A DNA stretch of 64,000 nucleotides from positions 744,001 to 808,000 of the forward strand of contig NZ_LWHG01000011.1 of assembly GCF_001625445.1 (NCBI RefSeq), written 5' to 3'. Source of the stretch: Haladaptatus sp. R4 (GTDB lineage: Archaea; Halobacteriota; Halobacteria; Halobacteriales; Haladaptataceae). The position numbers were made by a program, and so were the translations under genes. This document shows, piece by piece, positions 4,635 to 43,876 of this stretch. Every line of letters begins with the position of its first letter. Position 1 is the first letter of the stretch. The notes under the pieces are model-generated. The model had not been told where the DNA came from and did not search any database. It saw only the letters and a list, made by a program, of their open reading frames with translations.

Positions 4635-7378
4635 ATGCGAATGGATGCAGACGGAACCGCTCGCGACGGGCGGTATCCGACCGATGAGACGGACGACACC
4701 GAGAAGACGGACGAAACGACCAACTCCGACCGATACAACCGCCATTACAACCAGAAACAGGAGCAGATCAAAGAGGGAAGCGACCCCGGCAGTACGGACA
4801 CTCAACAAGCGACGGAACCACAGACGACGGCACCGATACGGACACCGGCACCGATACGGACAGTGGGCGCTATGACCACCGCTACGGGAACGGGAAATCG
4901 GAGCAGATCAAAGAGGGAAGCGACCCCGGCAGTACGGACGACTCAACAAGCGACGGAACCACAGACGACGGCACCAACCAACCGCCGGGCCTCACGCCGA
5001 CCTCTCCCGAGGAAAAAGAGCAATCACTCGGTCCGGCACCCCACCCGAACTGGCACGATACGACGCCGTCGCCCGGTGCCACGCCTAACGTGGTGTTTCG
5101 AGATGATTCTACGACGACGGTGGACGACAATCTAAATCTCAACGATGAGAATGTCCAAACGGCCGTTTCGAACGCTCGCAACGAGTTCGAAGCCGAGTAT
5201 CCCGGCCTGGAATCGAACGACTTTCAGATTGTCGTGAGCGGCGCAGCGGCCCACGTCGAACTCACCGAGAGCGGCAAACGCGAACTCACGGCTCGACAGA
5301 CGCGTGAGAACGTCAAAGAGGAGACGGGCGCGGAATCCGTCCAGGTGTGGTTTTCGGACGACAAAGTCCACGCCAAACCGATCTTTGGAGACGAGCCGGA
5401 CGAACTCCAAACGCCGGATGGCAAGTACCCGATGACCACGGGCGAAGGTGGCGGCCCCACAGTCGGAACGAAGGAGTTCGCCCGCGATTACGCGGAGGCA
5501 ACCCTGGAACGCCATATCGGTCGCAATGTCACGGTCCAGTCGATCGATGACGACGGCCATGTAAACGCGATCGTTAGCGGCTCGCGATACGACTACTCGC
5601 CGCAGAAAAAGGCGCGAGCGGTGGAGTACGATGTTGAGCACCAGCCACAGCAAACGGGTTCCTCGCGCTACACCGGGCCGGGACGAATCCATGAGATGCT
5701 GCTGGAACGCGAAATCGAATCACAGCATCCGGATGTGGACGTGAATGTCTATCGGGATGCGAGTGGGTCGGTGAACGTCGAAACGCTCGGCCGAGAGGAA
5801 CAGTTTGGAGATATCAAACTCACCGTTCCAGGGACGAACAAGCGCGTTGAGTCCTATCTCCGCGAAGGGAGCAATACGATTCAGCACGGGATTTCGGGTG
5901 TTGCGAGCGGTCTCTTCGACGAGGGTGGCGTTGCATCGGATTCGATCATTGCCGACGGTCTCCGGGCGACCGGGCATGATACCGCTGCCAACGAGTTCGA
6001 GCATGGGATTCGCTCGTTTGGGAAGGGACTGGTTGAAGGTGGTGGCGCGATCGCCGACGTTCCTGGCGTGGTCCTGGGCCTGAAAGAAGCCGGGGAATTT
6101 GCGGCCTATGGCGGGTCTGAAATCCTCTCGGGCGATTACGAGGATTTCAAATCGCAGACGGAAACCGCACTTGTCGCCGCGGGCAGTCAGGCGATCGCCT
6201 ACGGTCAGAAAAACCCGTTCGGCGCGGCGGGGATGGTTGTCGGGTCGCTCGGCGGGAGTTCGACACTCATGAATGGGGCCGAACGAATCTCGCCGCGACT
6301 CGGGACCGCTGCTCGGTGGTCGATTCAACCCGGCGAAGAACTCGCCGGGTCGTTTGGCAGTCGTGTGACGCGGACCGTTGCCGGAGACCGCGCCGCGGAC
6401 ACGCTGTTCCCTGGCGGTGAACCCATCTTCATGAGCGAGGAGACCGCCATCCGGGCGGGCAAGCGGGCGAAGGCCGGAGTTAGCGACACGCTCACACTTG
6501 ATGACGCAACGGTCGTGCGGCTCCGGTCCGGATTCGCGGACGAACGCGGGCAAGTTCAGATGCAAATCCAACGTGAACGCCCCTCGACGACCGTTGAGGA
6601 AGAGACGCCAACCAACGATGTGCGTGAGGTGACGCGTGCCGATTTCGAGGAGGAGGAAGCGCAATCGGTCTATGGAGTCGGGCGCGACGATCTTAATGAG
6701 CGACTGGCTGAGATGCGCTCGACCGTCCCCCGGAGCGATCTACGCGCGTCGGAGACGACCATCTCGACGGGGATGGGCGACGTGTTCGACGTGTGGCAAC
6801 GCAAGCGCGAGGTTGGTTCGGCGTTCGATACCGATCGGTTCCAAACGACGCGCGCACGCCGTGCGTTTGAATCGGATTTCGAATCGACGGAACCCGCCGG
6901 ATTCGAGACGGAGACGACCCAACGCCAACGCTTTCGAACGGAGCTCCGAACCGACCAATTGGTCGGACAGACGCAAGGGGTGAGTTCCGACGTGGGGACA
7001 CATCTCGCGACGGATGTCGAGTCGGACCTCACGACCGATGTAGTGACGGGCCTGGATTCTGAGATTGGTGTTGAAGCGGAAACGCTGTTTGAGTCTGAAT
7101 TAGCATCCGAGTCCGACCTCTCCACGGAATTCGAGTACGAGTCAGACTTTGCATCGGAATTCGAGTACGAGTCTGAGTCTGAACTCTCCACGGAATTCGA
7201 ATACGAGTCGGAATTTGAATCGGAATTCGAGCAAGAAACCGAACAGGAAGCGGAGTGGACGCTCCCGAAGAATCCATCGGATACCGACCAGGACGCCGGA
7301 AGCGACTGGTCGGAATGGTCGAAACGCTATGAGAATGAAATTGCGTCGAGTGAGGAGGTGTTAGGATGGGAGTTCTAA
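4635..7378 (+). CDS. Large acidic repeat-containing protein (one frame change near 4,800)
   Basis: Corrected for a missing base near 4,800, the gene encodes about 914 residues, the longest of the element. The first 150 residues are Asp/Thr-rich and contain a 75-base DNA repeat whose second copy (4,900-4,975) has one base more. The second copy shows where the base was lost and restores the frame. Residues 150-370 look like alternating alpha/beta domains. A Gly/Ala-rich hydrophobic part follows (GKGLVEGGGAIADVPG to AAGMVVGSLGGSS). The C-terminus has tandem Glu/Phe/Tyr/Ser repeats of the type EFEYES (DNA about 7,080-7,250) and ends in Trp-rich acidic residues. No known domain is recognised. It could be an internal scaffold, tape-measure-like or effector protein. 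Confidence 0.7.
4760..4975 (+). repeat. 75/76-base direct repeat inside the large acidic protein gene
   Basis: Copy 1 runs from 4,760 to 4,834 and copy 2 from 4,900 to 4,975. The two are identical except that copy 2 has an extra G after AGTACGGAC (position 4,940). In copy 2 the downstream reading frame is used (STDDSTSDGTTDDG). In copy 1 the same residues appear only if that G is restored. The repeat encodes an Asp/Ser/Thr/Gly-rich linker segment. Confidence 0.85.
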
Positions 7379-27154: not shown

Positions 27155-27320
27155 AGTGAGCACCAATGAACTTCTTTGGGTTACAATGAACACATACGTA
27201 CATCAACTTAAAGCTGTCGTGCGGTACGTTCACGAATAAAACCGTGACAGGGCGGCGCGTTTCGAAAGGTTCAATTACCCTTGCGGGTAACTGATGAATG
27301 CGTTCAGACAGAGGCCGACT

Positions 27321-27394
27321 GGGTTTGTGGTCTAGTTGGTTATGACACCTCCTTGACATGGAGGAGGCCGGCAGTTCAAATCTGCCCAAACCCA
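27321..27394 (+). tRNA. tRNA-Val(GAC)
   Basis: The acceptor GGGTTTG pairs with CAAACCC, followed by discriminator A. The anticodon arm CCTCC-TTGACAT-GGAGG gives anticodon GAC, valine. The T arm reads GGCAGTTCAAATCTGCC. It has no intron. Its 3' end is the source of the downstream repeats. Confidence 0.95.
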
Positions 27395-27653
27395 TACTTT
27401 TCCGCGCTACTATCCGACGAGCGAAGCGAGTCGCGGTAGCGCGGAAAATACCTGTTTGGCAGTTTGAACCAGGGAGTGGAGCGGAGCGAAACGACCGTGG
27501 TTCAAATCTGCCCAAACCCACTCAAATTCTCTCGAAAACAGCTTCTCACAGTGAATTCTCTTCCTTGTTATTGGGAGATTTGAACTAGACGAGACGCAGC
27601 GCGCGAACGTATGTGAGCGTGACCGTCTCGGCGTGGTTCAAATCTGCCCAAAC
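27395..27653 (+). repeat. Three copies of the tRNA-Val 3' end with hairpins
   Basis: The motif TTCAAATCTGCCCAAAC occurs at 27,375 (in the tRNA), 27,501 and 27,637, spaced 126 and 136 bases. Before the second and third copies the reverse complement of the same motif also appears (about 27,454-27,471 and 27,572-27,589). Each downstream unit is therefore a large hairpin with arms made of tRNA 3' sequence and a loop rich in GAGCGGAGCG or GCAGCGCGCGAAC. A separate perfect 13-base inverted repeat (TTTTCCGCGCTAC, 27,398-27,410, and its complement 27,436-27,448) encloses GAGCGAAGCGAG. From 27,654 to 27,835 I see only weak AT-rich sequence and no gene. Confidence 0.85.
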
Positions 27654-40555: not shown

Positions 40556-40621
40556 TTACGACGACAGGGAACTGTTCTTACGACGATAGAGGGGAGTTCT
40601 TACGACGACAGAGAACTGTTC
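40556..40621 (-). repeat. Three tandem 22-base copies at the 3' end of the Agl23-like gene
   Basis: Units at 40,556-40,577, 40,578-40,599 and 40,600-40,621 each begin TTACGACGA on the plus strand and end GTTC. The last contains the stop codon and final residues (NSSLSS) of the Agl23-like gene. The other two lie just downstream. Unit 1 and unit 3 differ at one base, and unit 2 is more diverged. Confidence 0.85.
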
Positions 40622-42408
40622 TGCACGTAGATGACCGTCGTGCTGACGGTACAACCACTGTTGTAGCTGAACCGCTGGAACTCGTAGCGCGTGTAGCCGG
40701 ACATGTAGCCCTCGATGTCCTCTGCGGTGCTGTCTTCGCTGGAACAGGTCGAGACGTTGGCCGGTGCGATGACGATTGGCGGTTTGTCCCCGCTCAACGC
40801 GGAGGCGTTCTGCGTGCTGGCCATCTGCGCGTCGGCGGTTTCGAGGTACCAATTGAGCGGGAGGCGGGCGAACCACCCTTCTCCGCCTTCACCGCTCTCG
40901 ACGGGATACACGTCGTCCGCGGCCTCGTTCGACGAGTAGAACTCACTTCCGTAGAACAGCACGTCCGTTCCCTCGTTTTCGCGTGAGATGCGTTCGAGGG
41001 TATGAAGGAGCGGCTTCGAGTGCGTCGAGGAGGACTGTGCGTACTGGACGAACTGGTTATCGGGGTCCTGTGGGTGCTGGTAGGTCGTGCTGTAAGCCGT
41101 CGTTCCGGCGGAAGCGACGACGAGCAACAGCAGGACGGCGGCGGCCGCGAGGCTCACGTCGTCGTGGTCCTCGTACGCCTCCCATCCCCAGCGGAAGACC
41201 AGCGCGAGGCCGACGGCCGCCGGGAACGCGAGTGGGATGATGGCGTGAATGGCGGCCCATCCGGCCTTGATGTCCATCACGAGCGGGTAGCCGAGGATGC
41301 TGGCGACACCCCAGTAGAAGCCGAACGCGACGATGTCACGGGGCCGGTCACCCGAATAGCGGTCGAGGACGAACCCCACGACCGCGAGAATACAGAGCGC
41401 CAACGCGCCGACTTTCAGCGTCGTGAGGAGGTGTTCGAGGTAGGGGAGATAGGCGTGGTCGGCGTGTCCCTGCCACCCGATGAAGTTGTTTCCGACCGTC
41501 ACTGTCGCGGCGACGAGCACCTTCGGAATCATCTCCGGGTGCGAAAGGGACTTCCAGAGGCCGGGACCTGACTGGCCCTGCGAACGCGGCGCGTAGAAGT
41601 AGATGAAGATGATCAGGAACTCGATGACGGCGGCGAGGCCGACTCCGAGCGCCTTGAGAACCGAGTTCATGACCGACCGGTCCCCTTCCATCAGTCGAAC
41701 CGCGCCGATTCGGTAGCGTCGCGGAACCGCCGCCCCGACTCCCTCGTTGCCGACGCGCTTGAGCATGAGACGGTGGTCGTACAGCAGGACGCCCGCGCCG
41801 ACCCAGCAGGCCACGTACAGCAGAGCGTTTTCCTTCATCGTGAAGCCGAGCGCGAAACAGGCCACGGCCGCGAAGAAGTACGACAGGCGGCGGGTGTCGA
41901 AGTAGCGGACGAGGAAGCCGAGCGCGAACACCATCGCTACCCCGAGAATCACGTCGTTTCGCATGAACCGCGAGTAGTAGAGCAGAACGGGATTCGCAGC
42001 GAAGAGGAAGGCGAGTGCGACCGTTTCGGAGGGCCTGAGTCGCTCCCGGAAGAGGAGCGCGGCGAGCGGGAGCAGTCCACCCAGGAGAGCGACGACGAAC
42101 CGCATGGTGAAGTCGTTCGCGCCGAACAGCGAGAACACGATGGAGTTCACCTGCATCAGGAACGGACCGTGGATGATGTGTCGATAGTACCAGACGCCGT
42201 TCTGCGAGTACGTGTAAATCCAGTACGCAACCCTCGCTTCGTCCTGATGGGCGACACGCGCGCCGAGGTTCACGAGGCGGAGGGCAAGCCCGACGACGGT
42301 GATGAGGACGACGAGCGGAACCGGCTCGGTGAGTCGCTGGAGGAGGCTCGATTCGTCGCTCGACGTGAGCGGGCGAGTACGTTTCTGGGCGGTGTCGGAA
42401 CCTTGCAT
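40600..42408 (-). CDS. Agl23-type membrane glycosyltransferase-like protein
   Basis: The protein has 602 residues. It has about 11-12 helices and the GT39/PMT-like first loop with acidic residues (ARVAHQDEARVAYWIYTYSQNG), the helix pattern of the haloarchaeal flippase-activity-associated Agl23 family (TIGR03663, from memory). A second external domain of about 130 residues covers the C-terminus (VLFYGSEFYSSNEAADDVYP), with two cysteines (VSTCSSED, NSGCTVSTTV). Probably it works in protein N-glycosylation or dolichol-phosphate sugar transfer. The first loop carries the Asp/Glu catalytic candidates. Confidence 0.8.
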   Translation of the reverse strand: MQGSDTAQKRTRPLTSSDESSLLQRLTEPVPLVVLITVVGLALRLVNLGARVAHQDEARVAYWIYTYSQNGVWYYRHIIHGPFLMQVNSIVFSLFGANDFTMRFVVALLGGLLPLAALLFRERLRPSETVALAFLFAANPVLLYYSRFMRNDVILGVAMVFALGFLVRYFDTRRLSYFFAAVACFALGFTMKENALLYVACWVGAGVLLYDHRLMLKRVGNEGVGAAVPRRYRIGAVRLMEGDRSVMNSVLKALGVGLAAVIEFLIIFIYFYAPRSQGQSGPGLWKSLSHPEMIPKVLVAATVTVGNNFIGWQGHADHAYLPYLEHLLTTLKVGALALCILAVVGFVLDRYSGDRPRDIVAFGFYWGVASILGYPLVMDIKAGWAAIHAIIPLAFPAAVGLALVFRWGWEAYEDHDDVSLAAAAVLLLLVVASAGTTAYSTTYQHPQDPDNQFVQYAQSSSTHSKPLLHTLERISRENEGTDVLFYGSEFYSSNEAADDVYPVESGEGGEGWFARLPLNWYLETADAQMASTQNASALSGDKPPIVIAPANVSTCSSEDSTAEDIEGYMSGYTRYEFQRFSYNSGCTVSTTVIYVQNSSLSS

Positions 42409-42550: not shown

Positions 42551-43699
42551 ATGGATAGCGATACCACACCAGTCATCGTGAAGGCGATTCGAACGCCACA
42601 GGGCAAGGAAGGTGGCGTCTTCGCCGACGTTCGAAGCGAAGACCTCTCGATCCCGCTCGTCAACACGATCCTCTCCGAGACGGGGGTAACCGGAGACGAC
42701 ATCGACGACCTCATGTGGGGCGTCGCCCAGCAACGCGGGGAACAGGACAACAACGTTGCCCGCGTCATCGCGCTCCTCTCGGACCTCGGCGAGGGCGTCC
42801 CGGCGACGAGCATTAACCGATGGTGTGCGTCCTCCATGCAGGCGCTCATCAGCGCGAGCGACGCGATTCGGGCGGGCCAGCGCCAAGCCATCATCGCCGG
42901 GGGCGTCGAGAACATGTCCCGCGTGCCCATGAGCGGCGGGTACGAGGGGCGGGGCATCCACCCGGAGATGGCCGAGAAGTACAACCTTCCCACGCTCCAG
43001 ATGGGAATGACCGGCGAGAAGGTCGCCGAGGTGTACGAGGTGTCCCGCGAGGAACAGGACGAGTACGCGCTCCGAAGCCAGCAGCGCGCCGCCGAAGCGA
43101 CAGACTCCGGCCGCTTCGACGACGAAATCGTCCCCATCGAAACCGAGGACGGACTGGTCGAGGAGGACGAAGGGATCCGACGCGGCACCAGCATGGAAGC
43201 CCTGCAGGGCCTCCCGAGCGTGTTCAAGGCGGACGGCACCGTGACGCCGGGCAACGCCTCCCAGATTTCCGACGGGGCGTCCGCCCTTCTCGTCACCAGC
43301 AAGGCGTTCGCGGACGAACACGACCTCGAAATCATGGCCACCGTCGGCGACAACAACGTCGCGGGCGTGGACCCGACCGTGATGGGAATCGGCCCCGTCC
43401 CGGCCACGAAGGGCCTGCTCGAACGGACGGGCGAGAGCATCGACGAGTTCGACCTCGTGGAACTGAACGAGGCCTTCGCCAGTCAGACGCTCTACAGCCA
43501 ACGCGAACTCGGCGTCCCGGACGACAAGTTCAACGTCAACGGCGGCGCAATCGCCATCGGCCACCCGCTCGGTGCCTCTGGCGCACGTCTGCCCGTGACG
43601 CTCGTCCACGAGATGCAAAAGCGCGACGCGAAGAAAGGACTCGCCACGCTCTGTGTCGGCTTCGGACAGGGTGCGGCAATCACGCTGAAGCGCGAGTAA
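42551..43699 (+). CDS. Thiolase family acetyl-CoA acyltransferase
   Basis: The ATG at 42,551 (MDSDTTPVIVKAIRTP) gives 382 residues, the normal length. The active-site acylated cysteine is in INRWCASSMQALIS, the catalytic His in AIAIGHPLGASGARL and the second Cys in ATLCVGFGQGAAITLKRE. It acts in fatty-acid beta-oxidation or acetoacetyl-CoA formation. No beta-oxidation partner is adjacent. A partial copy of its 3' end follows (43,844). Confidence 0.93.
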   Translation: MDSDTTPVIVKAIRTPQGKEGGVFADVRSEDLSIPLVNTILSETGVTGDDIDDLMWGVAQQRGEQDNNVARVIALLSDLGEGVPATSINRWCASSMQALISASDAIRAGQRQAIIAGGVENMSRVPMSGGYEGRGIHPEMAEKYNLPTLQMGMTGEKVAEVYEVSREEQDEYALRSQQRAAEATDSGRFDDEIVPIETEDGLVEEDEGIRRGTSMEALQGLPSVFKADGTVTPGNASQISDGASALLVTSKAFADEHDLEIMATVGDNNVAGVDPTVMGIGPVPATKGLLERTGESIDEFDLVELNEAFASQTLYSQRELGVPDDKFNVNGGAIAIGHPLGASGARLPVTLVHEMQKRDAKKGLATLCVGFGQGAAITLKRE

Positions 43700-43876
43700 T
43701 CGACGCGAATCCCCGATTCGCGGGCGACGAGTGACTGTCGAGGTGGGACACCTCGAAAGGAACGAGGAAGTCCTTTTGGTCGAGCTTTTACAGGGAACGA
43801 GGGAGCGGAGCGACCTCGTGACCGTCGTAAAGGGTCGTCGTGGCAGGGTGCGGCGATAACGCTGAAGCGCGAGTGA
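43667..43876 (+). repeat. Duplicated thiolase 3' end with intervening hairpin
   Basis: The last 33 bases of the thiolase gene (43,667-43,699, encoding QGAAITLKRE and stop) recur at 43,844-43,876 with three changes, including TAA to TGA. Between them is an imperfect hairpin (about 43,785-43,832) with the loop GAGCGGAGCG, the same core as beside tRNA-Val. The stretch between the copies codes for nothing credible. Confidence 0.8.

Follow-up and report, generated by a model that had tools for sequence, protein, structure and literature searches.

A duplicated 3′ end behind a haloarchaeal thiolase gene

Within the window, by which we mean the whole 64,000-nt stretch of the Haladaptatus sp. R4 genome analysed here, the plus strand carries a gene for a 382-residue protein of the acetyl-CoA acetyltransferase family (42551-43699; Pfam Thiolase_N, 6.9e-72, and Thiolase_C, 1.1e-45), which opens with an ATG at 42551 and closes with a stop codon at 43697-43699. 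Its terminal sequence, CAGGGTGCGGCAATCACGCTGAAGCGCGAGTAA, includes the proximal, functional 3′ end (43667-43699, plus strand), encoding QGAAITLKRE and the stop. An earlier note on this DNA had reported that these last 33 bases recur downstream behind a hairpin with a particular core, and both observations hold: the distal copy lies at 43844-43876 on the same strand, with 30 of 33 positions identical and a start-to-start distance of 177 bases, and the GAGCGGAGCG loop of the intervening hairpin lies at 43803-43812. The distal copy encodes the same ten residues and stop, all three differences, the stop codon included, being synonymous. Because 26 of the 99 single changes possible in the 33-mer are synonymous, and the proximal end is under selection, this all-synonymous pattern is weak evidence.

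Read 5′ to 3′, the 177-base period runs from the gene end through a trailer hairpin, another small hairpin and a palindromic element to the copy. The trailer (43701-43737, plus strand), which contains the hairpin CGCGAAT..ATTCGCG, is also found behind the thiolase of a sister species, G008, that has no copy; the second hairpin, TCGAGGT..ACCTCGA (43738-43756, plus strand), is recognized from sequence and fold. The element itself (43773-43843, plus strand) extends from CTTTTGGTCSAGCTTTTACAGGGA to GACCGTCGTAAAAGGT around the GAGCGGAGCG loop and belongs to a dispersed palindromic family that we designate family B; the stretch 43755-43843 folds with a z score of −3.4. Together these parts form a spacer of 144 nt.

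A search of the window for 30-mers that recur 60-400 positions away with 26 or more identities found four places, the thiolase end among them, and ten order-5 Markov shuffles of the window yielded none by the same criterion. Given this absence from the shuffles, and given that the 30 of 33 identities compare with a maximum of 23 of 33 in the gene-end controls described below, chance similarity can for practical purposes be dismissed as the origin of the copy. Elsewhere in the window, a direct repeat with a period of roughly 140 is suggested at 4760-4970 by two exact 30-base matches (offsets 140 and 141), and a 27/30 direct repeat with an offset of 66 occurs at 7109-7204.

Two other sources of the copy were considered and rejected. 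A second thiolase gene as donor is not indicated by a 591-base query, whose four further matches in the same genome all lie within its family-B part. Replacement of the gene end by a foreign one was considered in view of the thiolase C-termini of nine members of the genus (L011-L019), which read ITLKRE in the present genome (G000) and the sister species G006 and G008. The six remaining members end in MTFERR or ITFERR. As the two G000 copies share the LKRE type, they do not show such a replacement.

tRNA genes followed by copies of their own 3′ ends

The earlier note had likened the thiolase to a tRNA gene in the same window. The tRNA-Val(GAC) gene (27320-27395) is followed by a first cassette (27396-27499), which comprises a trailer hairpin and a palindrome bearing an inverted tRNA end (27463-27474) and a GAGCGGAGCG loop at 27479, by a first copy of the tRNA 3′ end, GTTCAAATCTGCCCAAACCCA (27500-27520), by a second cassette (27521-27635) with the palindrome TTGGGAGATTTGAAC .. 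GTTCAAATCTGCCCAA, whose hairpin matches our covariance model R1 (see below) at 62.6 bits, and by a second, shorter copy (27636-27653), all on the plus strand. The likeness survives in gross outline, since a 3′ end, a hairpin and a second 3′ end are common to tRNA genes and to the aspS genes described below. It fails in detail: the hairpin behind the thiolase is of a different repeat family, none of the inverted repeats in its spacer is a copy of the gene end, and none of the listed R1 matches falls in that spacer. Nor does the shared decamer indicate kinship, GAGCGRAGCG being a common hairpin-loop sequence that occurs 24 times (both strands) in an 864-kb sample of the genome, eight times fully intergenically. 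This sample consists of the window and 40 stretches of 20 kb.

The outline seen at tRNA-Val is frequent among tRNA genes. With a copy defined as at least 17 identities to the gene's own last 22 nt within 450 nt downstream (less near contig ends), such copies follow 17 of 45 tRNA genes in the present genome, 21 of 48 in G006 and 26 of 52 in G008, or 64 of 145 in total, as well as 9 of 41 tRNAs in a non-random sample formed by the best-scoring tRNAs of 30 further genomes of the class. Controls using the 5′ end upstream, the 3′ end upstream or the 5′ end downstream gave 0 to 2 cases each per set. The set from the present genome was drawn from RF00005 matches and lacks the tRNA-Pro(GGG) of the window, and a further case there that proved to be a tandem tRNA gene stands outside the 17 of 45; in G008, where 26 tRNA places had no locus, sequence was retrieved for 20 and not for the other six. 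Inspected by eye, the copies typically extend from the G before the TTC of the T loop as far as the final encoded base; they begin GTTC(A/G)AATC and measure about 21 nt.

Rfam 15 gave one tRNA in the window at the gathering threshold and, at E values up to 1 on seven loci, tRNAs and one sub-threshold match overlapping a tRNA, with no other family represented. Among phages and viruses no matching carrier of the cassettes was found, and plasmids yielded four weak matches to a tRNA array and none to the thiolase region.

Cassette palindromes and their class-wide distribution

The 118 intervals between copies have a median length of 111 nt and range from 48 to 247 nt, some of them being no cassettes, as with tandem tRNA-Met genes. 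A typical unit begins with a T-rich trailer carrying a hairpin and continues into a long palindrome. In the latter, an inverted tRNA end forms the left arm and the direct copy the right one, and between them lie an inner stem characteristic of the family and a loop that varies. The left arm, recognizable in 87 distinct units, matches the tRNA that the unit follows: its mean score against its own tRNA is 10.15, compared with 8.49 (sd 0.21) when labels are permuted, and none of 5000 permutations scored as high, with the own tRNA being first or tied as best match in just 16 of the 87 units. At the variable T-loop pair, left arm and tRNA combine as A-T in 36 units, G-C in 22, A-C in 5 and G-T in none, so that 58 of 63 pair (p 1.5e-12). 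Within the inner stem, changes on both sides occur at 7 of 12 pairs. Near-identical cores stand behind different tRNAs, 16 unit pairs among 60 cores being at least 86% identical.

A covariance model, R1, was built on 18 such units, for which, as in the fold calculations, the right arm was filled with the tRNA's own end (the actual copy being at least 16/21 identical), which tilts scores slightly toward perfect arms. At an E value of 0.001, R1 matches 57 of 59 genomes of the class, which cover 31 of 32 genera. When 120 genomes were drawn from the phylum and searched at E 0.0001, 18 matched, all of them from the order of the present species; among the 102 negative genomes, the 20 listed by kinship comprise one of that order and 19 related at phylum level only. 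The best R1 match in each of 30 genomes lies behind a same-strand tRNA in 27 cases and carries that tRNA's end at 16-21 of 21 positions, a preference to be expected since the model includes the T-loop arms; some apparently orphan matches also sat behind tRNAs missing from our list, such as tRNA-Pro(CGG). The core hairpin alone, sought with a strict pattern, is exclusively haloarchaeal by title among the matches listed (80 of 80 loci, from 119 stretches). Only 17 of the 86 distinct listed matches stand behind a tRNA, 15 of these 17 with a copy, and the core hairpin is therefore not bound to tRNA genes.

These properties could also be expected of a functional RNA, such as a terminator or processing signal, held under selection, with the copies kept by gene conversion and bearing no mark of mobility. 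The hairpin is conserved and covarying, 27 of 40 units have fold z scores below −2 (median −3.1), and the copy behind tRNA-Leu(CAA) stands at a nearly constant distance in the three species (76, 76 and 74 nt). However, at least half of every species' tRNA genes have no copy, orthologous genes differ in its presence, and the synonymous codon differences of the aspS copies described below would go unexplained by an RNA role. We consider this alternative improbable. Were it correct, the hairpins would constitute an abundant unannotated element, present downstream of roughly two in five tRNA genes examined across the three species (64 of 145).

Protein genes and the aspS hot spot

The earlier note had proposed a genome-wide search for further gene ends arranged like that of the thiolase, and the 864-kb sample speaks against any general excess of distant 3′-end copies behind protein genes. 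At the DNA level, the thiolase is the sole one of 709 testable called genes whose 3′ end has a copy with at least 25 of 33 identities at 60 nt or more downstream; the same test applied to 5′ ends and internal segments gave no case at this level and a maximum of 23/33. At the peptide level, 7 of 11 matching residues were reached by 3 of 778 genes, whereas permutation gave 0.25 on average and never more than 1, these three being the thiolase and two short-range duplications.

Short-range duplications that include the stop codon occur at a gene in L096 (3133-3754; 27/33 at 46 nt) and at one in L281 (4231-4716; 23/33 at 72 nt). The gene upstream of the thiolase (40600-42408, minus strand) likewise has its last 22 bases repeated right behind its stop codon, with 22/33 identities over the test window and 44 nt from start to start (40556-40632).

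A second set of loci, selected for core-hairpin or family-B modules, yielded one gene of 505 at the DNA level and one of 689 at the peptide level, in both cases the same gene in L353, from the Haloarculaceae. Going by its Pfam domain (tRNA-synt_2), it is presumably aspS, the gene for aspartyl-tRNA synthetase, and it is followed by three more stretches that read (F/V)(P/S)RDRQRLSP-stop in other codons. We then added to L353 the 30 loci that best match its protein across the 59 class genomes, a set whose proportions are not random-sample rates: 17 of these 31 loci have a tail copy within 700 nt downstream, with 26 copies altogether. Nine of the 26 specify all ten residues and the stop without change despite 2 to 13 base differences, and the copies overall show 143 synonymous and 33 non-synonymous codon differences, in a search that tolerated up to three amino-acid changes and hence favoured synonymous-rich copies. 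Peptides from deeper inside the gene recur at 0-1 of 31 loci, compared with 18 of 31 for the C-terminus. Like the tRNA copies, 12 of the 26 start at G|TTC, the remainder beginning GTTT, GTCT or otherwise. The region preceding the copies resembles an inverted arm at 8.8 of 13 positions, compared with 7.4 in shuffles (n = 19), 10 of the 19 being ahead by at least 1. In the present genome, the aspS gene has no downstream copy.

The gene is one protein hot spot for 3′-end copies. Since protein selection seems to have shaped these copies before they reached their present location, they look like former or imported working ends of the gene, and serial recombination at the aspS 3′ end appears to be the simplest account of them. 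They may consequently record earlier or foreign versions of that end.

Gain and loss among sister species

The thiolase arrangement is not confined to the present genome. In G006 the same family-B element and the copy are present, the two gene ends there differing at 6 bases (four synonymous codons and one non-synonymous). In G008 the thiolase and its trailer hairpin are present, and element and copy are both absent. Six further members of the genus, in which the C-terminus differs, show neither element nor copy in the thiolase stretch when inspected by eye. The trailer shared with G008 adjoins the proximal thiolase end, which argues against a simple insertion, as this would have placed the native flank behind the distal copy.

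The thiolase pair may be unrelated to the tRNA arrays and represent a 33-bp microduplication of the gene end, into or beside which a family-B palindrome was inserted; this is a serious rival, to which we nonetheless assign rather less than an even chance. Such a duplication would be harmless behind a stop codon, the three short-range cases noted above (L096, L281 and the gene at 40600-42408) provide parallels within the sample, and the thiolase spacer is without an inverted arm. Family B is, moreover, dispersed: it is a repeat family of the genus with the architecture CTTTTGGTCSAGCTTTTACAGGGA, variable stem, GACCGTCGTAAAAGGT, represented by 28 distinct copies among the loci collected. Of these, 26 have both ends, and a duplicated flank (at least 20/25) was seen at just two of the 26, the thiolase loci, a result that leads us to reject family B as a general cause of end duplications. 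On the other side, the copy stops at the stop codon, as the tRNA and aspS copies stop at their gene ends, the differences in the present genome are synonymous, and the 144-nt hairpin spacer falls within the 48-247 nt of the tRNA intervals. Weighing the shared outline against the missing arms and core and the position of the G008 trailer, we regard the odds that the pair belongs with the tRNA and aspS cassettes as about even.

For the tRNA genes, like-named pairs in the three species allow 62 comparisons of an occupied with an empty site, 24 of them with clearly orthologous flanks. Insertion or exact excision predicts that the empty site resembles the flank behind the last copy, whereas distal deletion predicts that it resembles the flank adjoining the tRNA; the former scores higher in 10 of the 24 and the latter in 14. 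When five comparisons whose scores both stay within the 99th percentile of the null are dropped, the division is 9 to 10, three of the nine being tRNA-Met genes confused by tandem copies. This split implies that losses or other mechanisms are frequent. The best case for insertion or exact excision is tRNA-Phe, which has two cassettes in G006 and none in G008, the G008 flank aligning after the last G006 copy (149 compared with 18). At tRNA-Leu(TAG), the order of units differs between G006 and G008 as judged by eye. At the tRNA-Val(TAC) of G006 (L261, 7224-9991), an insert of about 2.7 kb separates copies of the tRNA end and is closed by a further palindrome of the cassette kind and a 21/21 tRNA end; the two longest of its several open reading frames (246 and 207 aa), which were the ones scanned, have no Pfam match. 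Behind the tRNA-Lys(TTT) of G008 (L135), three units of equal sequence stand in tandem, a sign of recent expansion.

A cassette model and its relation to known elements

We favour the interpretation, to which we would give an even chance, that gene 3′ ends in haloarchaea are landing sites of short, gene-less hairpin cassettes, and that the thiolase is most likely a lone, decayed case. Site-specific recombination would carry a cassette into the 3′ end of a gene, with the 5′ edge of the duplicated segment (G|TTC in the tRNAs and in many aspS copies) as the probable point of entry. The gene would be completed by a 3′ end that the cassette brings or duplicates, and its previous end would be pushed downstream and decay there; repeated events would generate arrays, with tRNA genes and aspS as hot spots. 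At the thiolase, the family-B palindrome would be what came to lie between the ends at 43667-43699 and 43844-43876. The gene-matched left arm may reflect a requirement for a palindromic site, or it may arise from template-directed correction of palindromes, a possible source of matched arms.

This cassette interpretation draws support from the tRNA copy rates relative to controls, the matched arms, the class-wide distribution of R1, gain or loss at tRNA-Phe, the 2.7-kb insert of G006 and the aspS copies, and, at the thiolase, from the presence of the pair in the present genome and G006, its absence from G008 and the synonymous differences in the present genome. It is weakened by the single case among 709 protein genes, the armless and R1-less thiolase spacer, the split flank comparisons and a core that is not tRNA-bound. 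We found no recombinase, circle or junction. Directly observed are the duplicated ends, their arrays, the covarying gene-matched arms, the spread through the class, the differences in occupancy among sister species and the synonymous differences of the aspS copies; mobility, the recombinase, the direction in which ends are displaced and the membership of the thiolase are inferred. The fuller proposition, in which a class-wide haloarchaeal system of gene-less hairpin units, driven by a recombinase, re-ends tRNA genes, aspS and occasionally other genes such as this thiolase and stacks the displaced ends, is one that we put forward tentatively and suspect may not hold in full.

Gene 3′ ends are textbook integration sites, and integrative elements that target tRNA genes are flanked on both sides by the gene's 3′ end. 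In one account of archaeal elements that use tyrosine recombinases, att sites extend from 8 bp to over 100 bp (PMC8371274). The tRNA, aspS and thiolase arrangements resemble such elements in having an intact target 3′ end and a second copy at the far end. They differ in that the inserts, of about 50-250 nt, are too short for an integrase gene, and in the arrays, the hairpin cores shared across tRNAs and the inverted left arm matched to the gene. Should the cassettes prove mobile, we know of no smaller unit that integrates site-specifically, and they would offer ready markers for strain history.

Integrons present a second comparison. Their attC sites, with the core GTTRRRY / RYYYAAC, are palindromes with variable loops that occur in tandem units and have their edge after G and before TT. 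The cassettes share the tandem units, the variable-loop palindromes and an edge between G and TT, and integrons are described from Archaea (PMC9668308). It might be supposed that the tRNA arrays form through integron-like, single-strand recombination of hairpin sites, with tRNA 3′ ends as entry sites. The differing unit order at tRNA-Leu(TAG), the matched arms and the one longer insert with reading frames fit such a process. Conversely, the units are small and contain no gene cassettes, their edge reads GTTC, unlike the GTTRRRY of attC, and the integron integrase model TIGR02249 reached its cut-off in none of the 59 class genomes, with sub-threshold matches in 8, in a search whose controls likewise matched only below the cut-off (13 of 14). 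On balance, we think an integron-like origin unlikely.

Miniature inverted-repeat transposable elements (MITEs) are characterized by short target duplications of fixed length and by inverted ends that do not depend on the target. In the cassettes, by contrast, the copies are about 21 nt (tRNA) or 33 nt (thiolase) long and the inverted arm follows the target gene. The PATEs and MITEs of Haloquadratum walsbyi, which have been related to IS605-type transposons, share with family B a haloarchaeal host and a palindromic form, and the part of the published description on which we draw mentions no 3′-end duplication for them (PMC3119063). Open-access titles and the beginnings of abstracts, in a survey that mostly did not extend to subscription papers, do not describe haloarchaeal tRNA genes or aspS as having 3′-end copies that follow hairpins. 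The group-wide pattern of gene tails behind hairpins thus looks undescribed, and we regard the novelty of hairpin-cassette arrays at gene 3′ ends as provisional.

Shared modules among dispersed palindromes

Family B has features of its own as a dispersed element. In 17 of the 26 two-ended copies, an antisense reading frame of at least 60 codons terminates no more than 20 nt from the element's right end, neither thiolase locus being among these. At 6 of 17 loci read (L263, L266, L269, L271, L273 and L274), the core hairpin of the tRNA cassettes directly precedes family-B-like elements, which indicates that the dispersed palindromes of haloarchaea are modular and that their families are linked through shared modules. 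These modules give some substance to the idea of kinship advanced in the earlier note, though not by way of the decamer. The same core hairpin also occurs in other dispersed haloarchaeal elements (L270, L272, L275, L276 and many of L298-L377), which end, for example, in GGGGGCTTTCGAGG or GGGACTCAAAGGGGCAGCCG.
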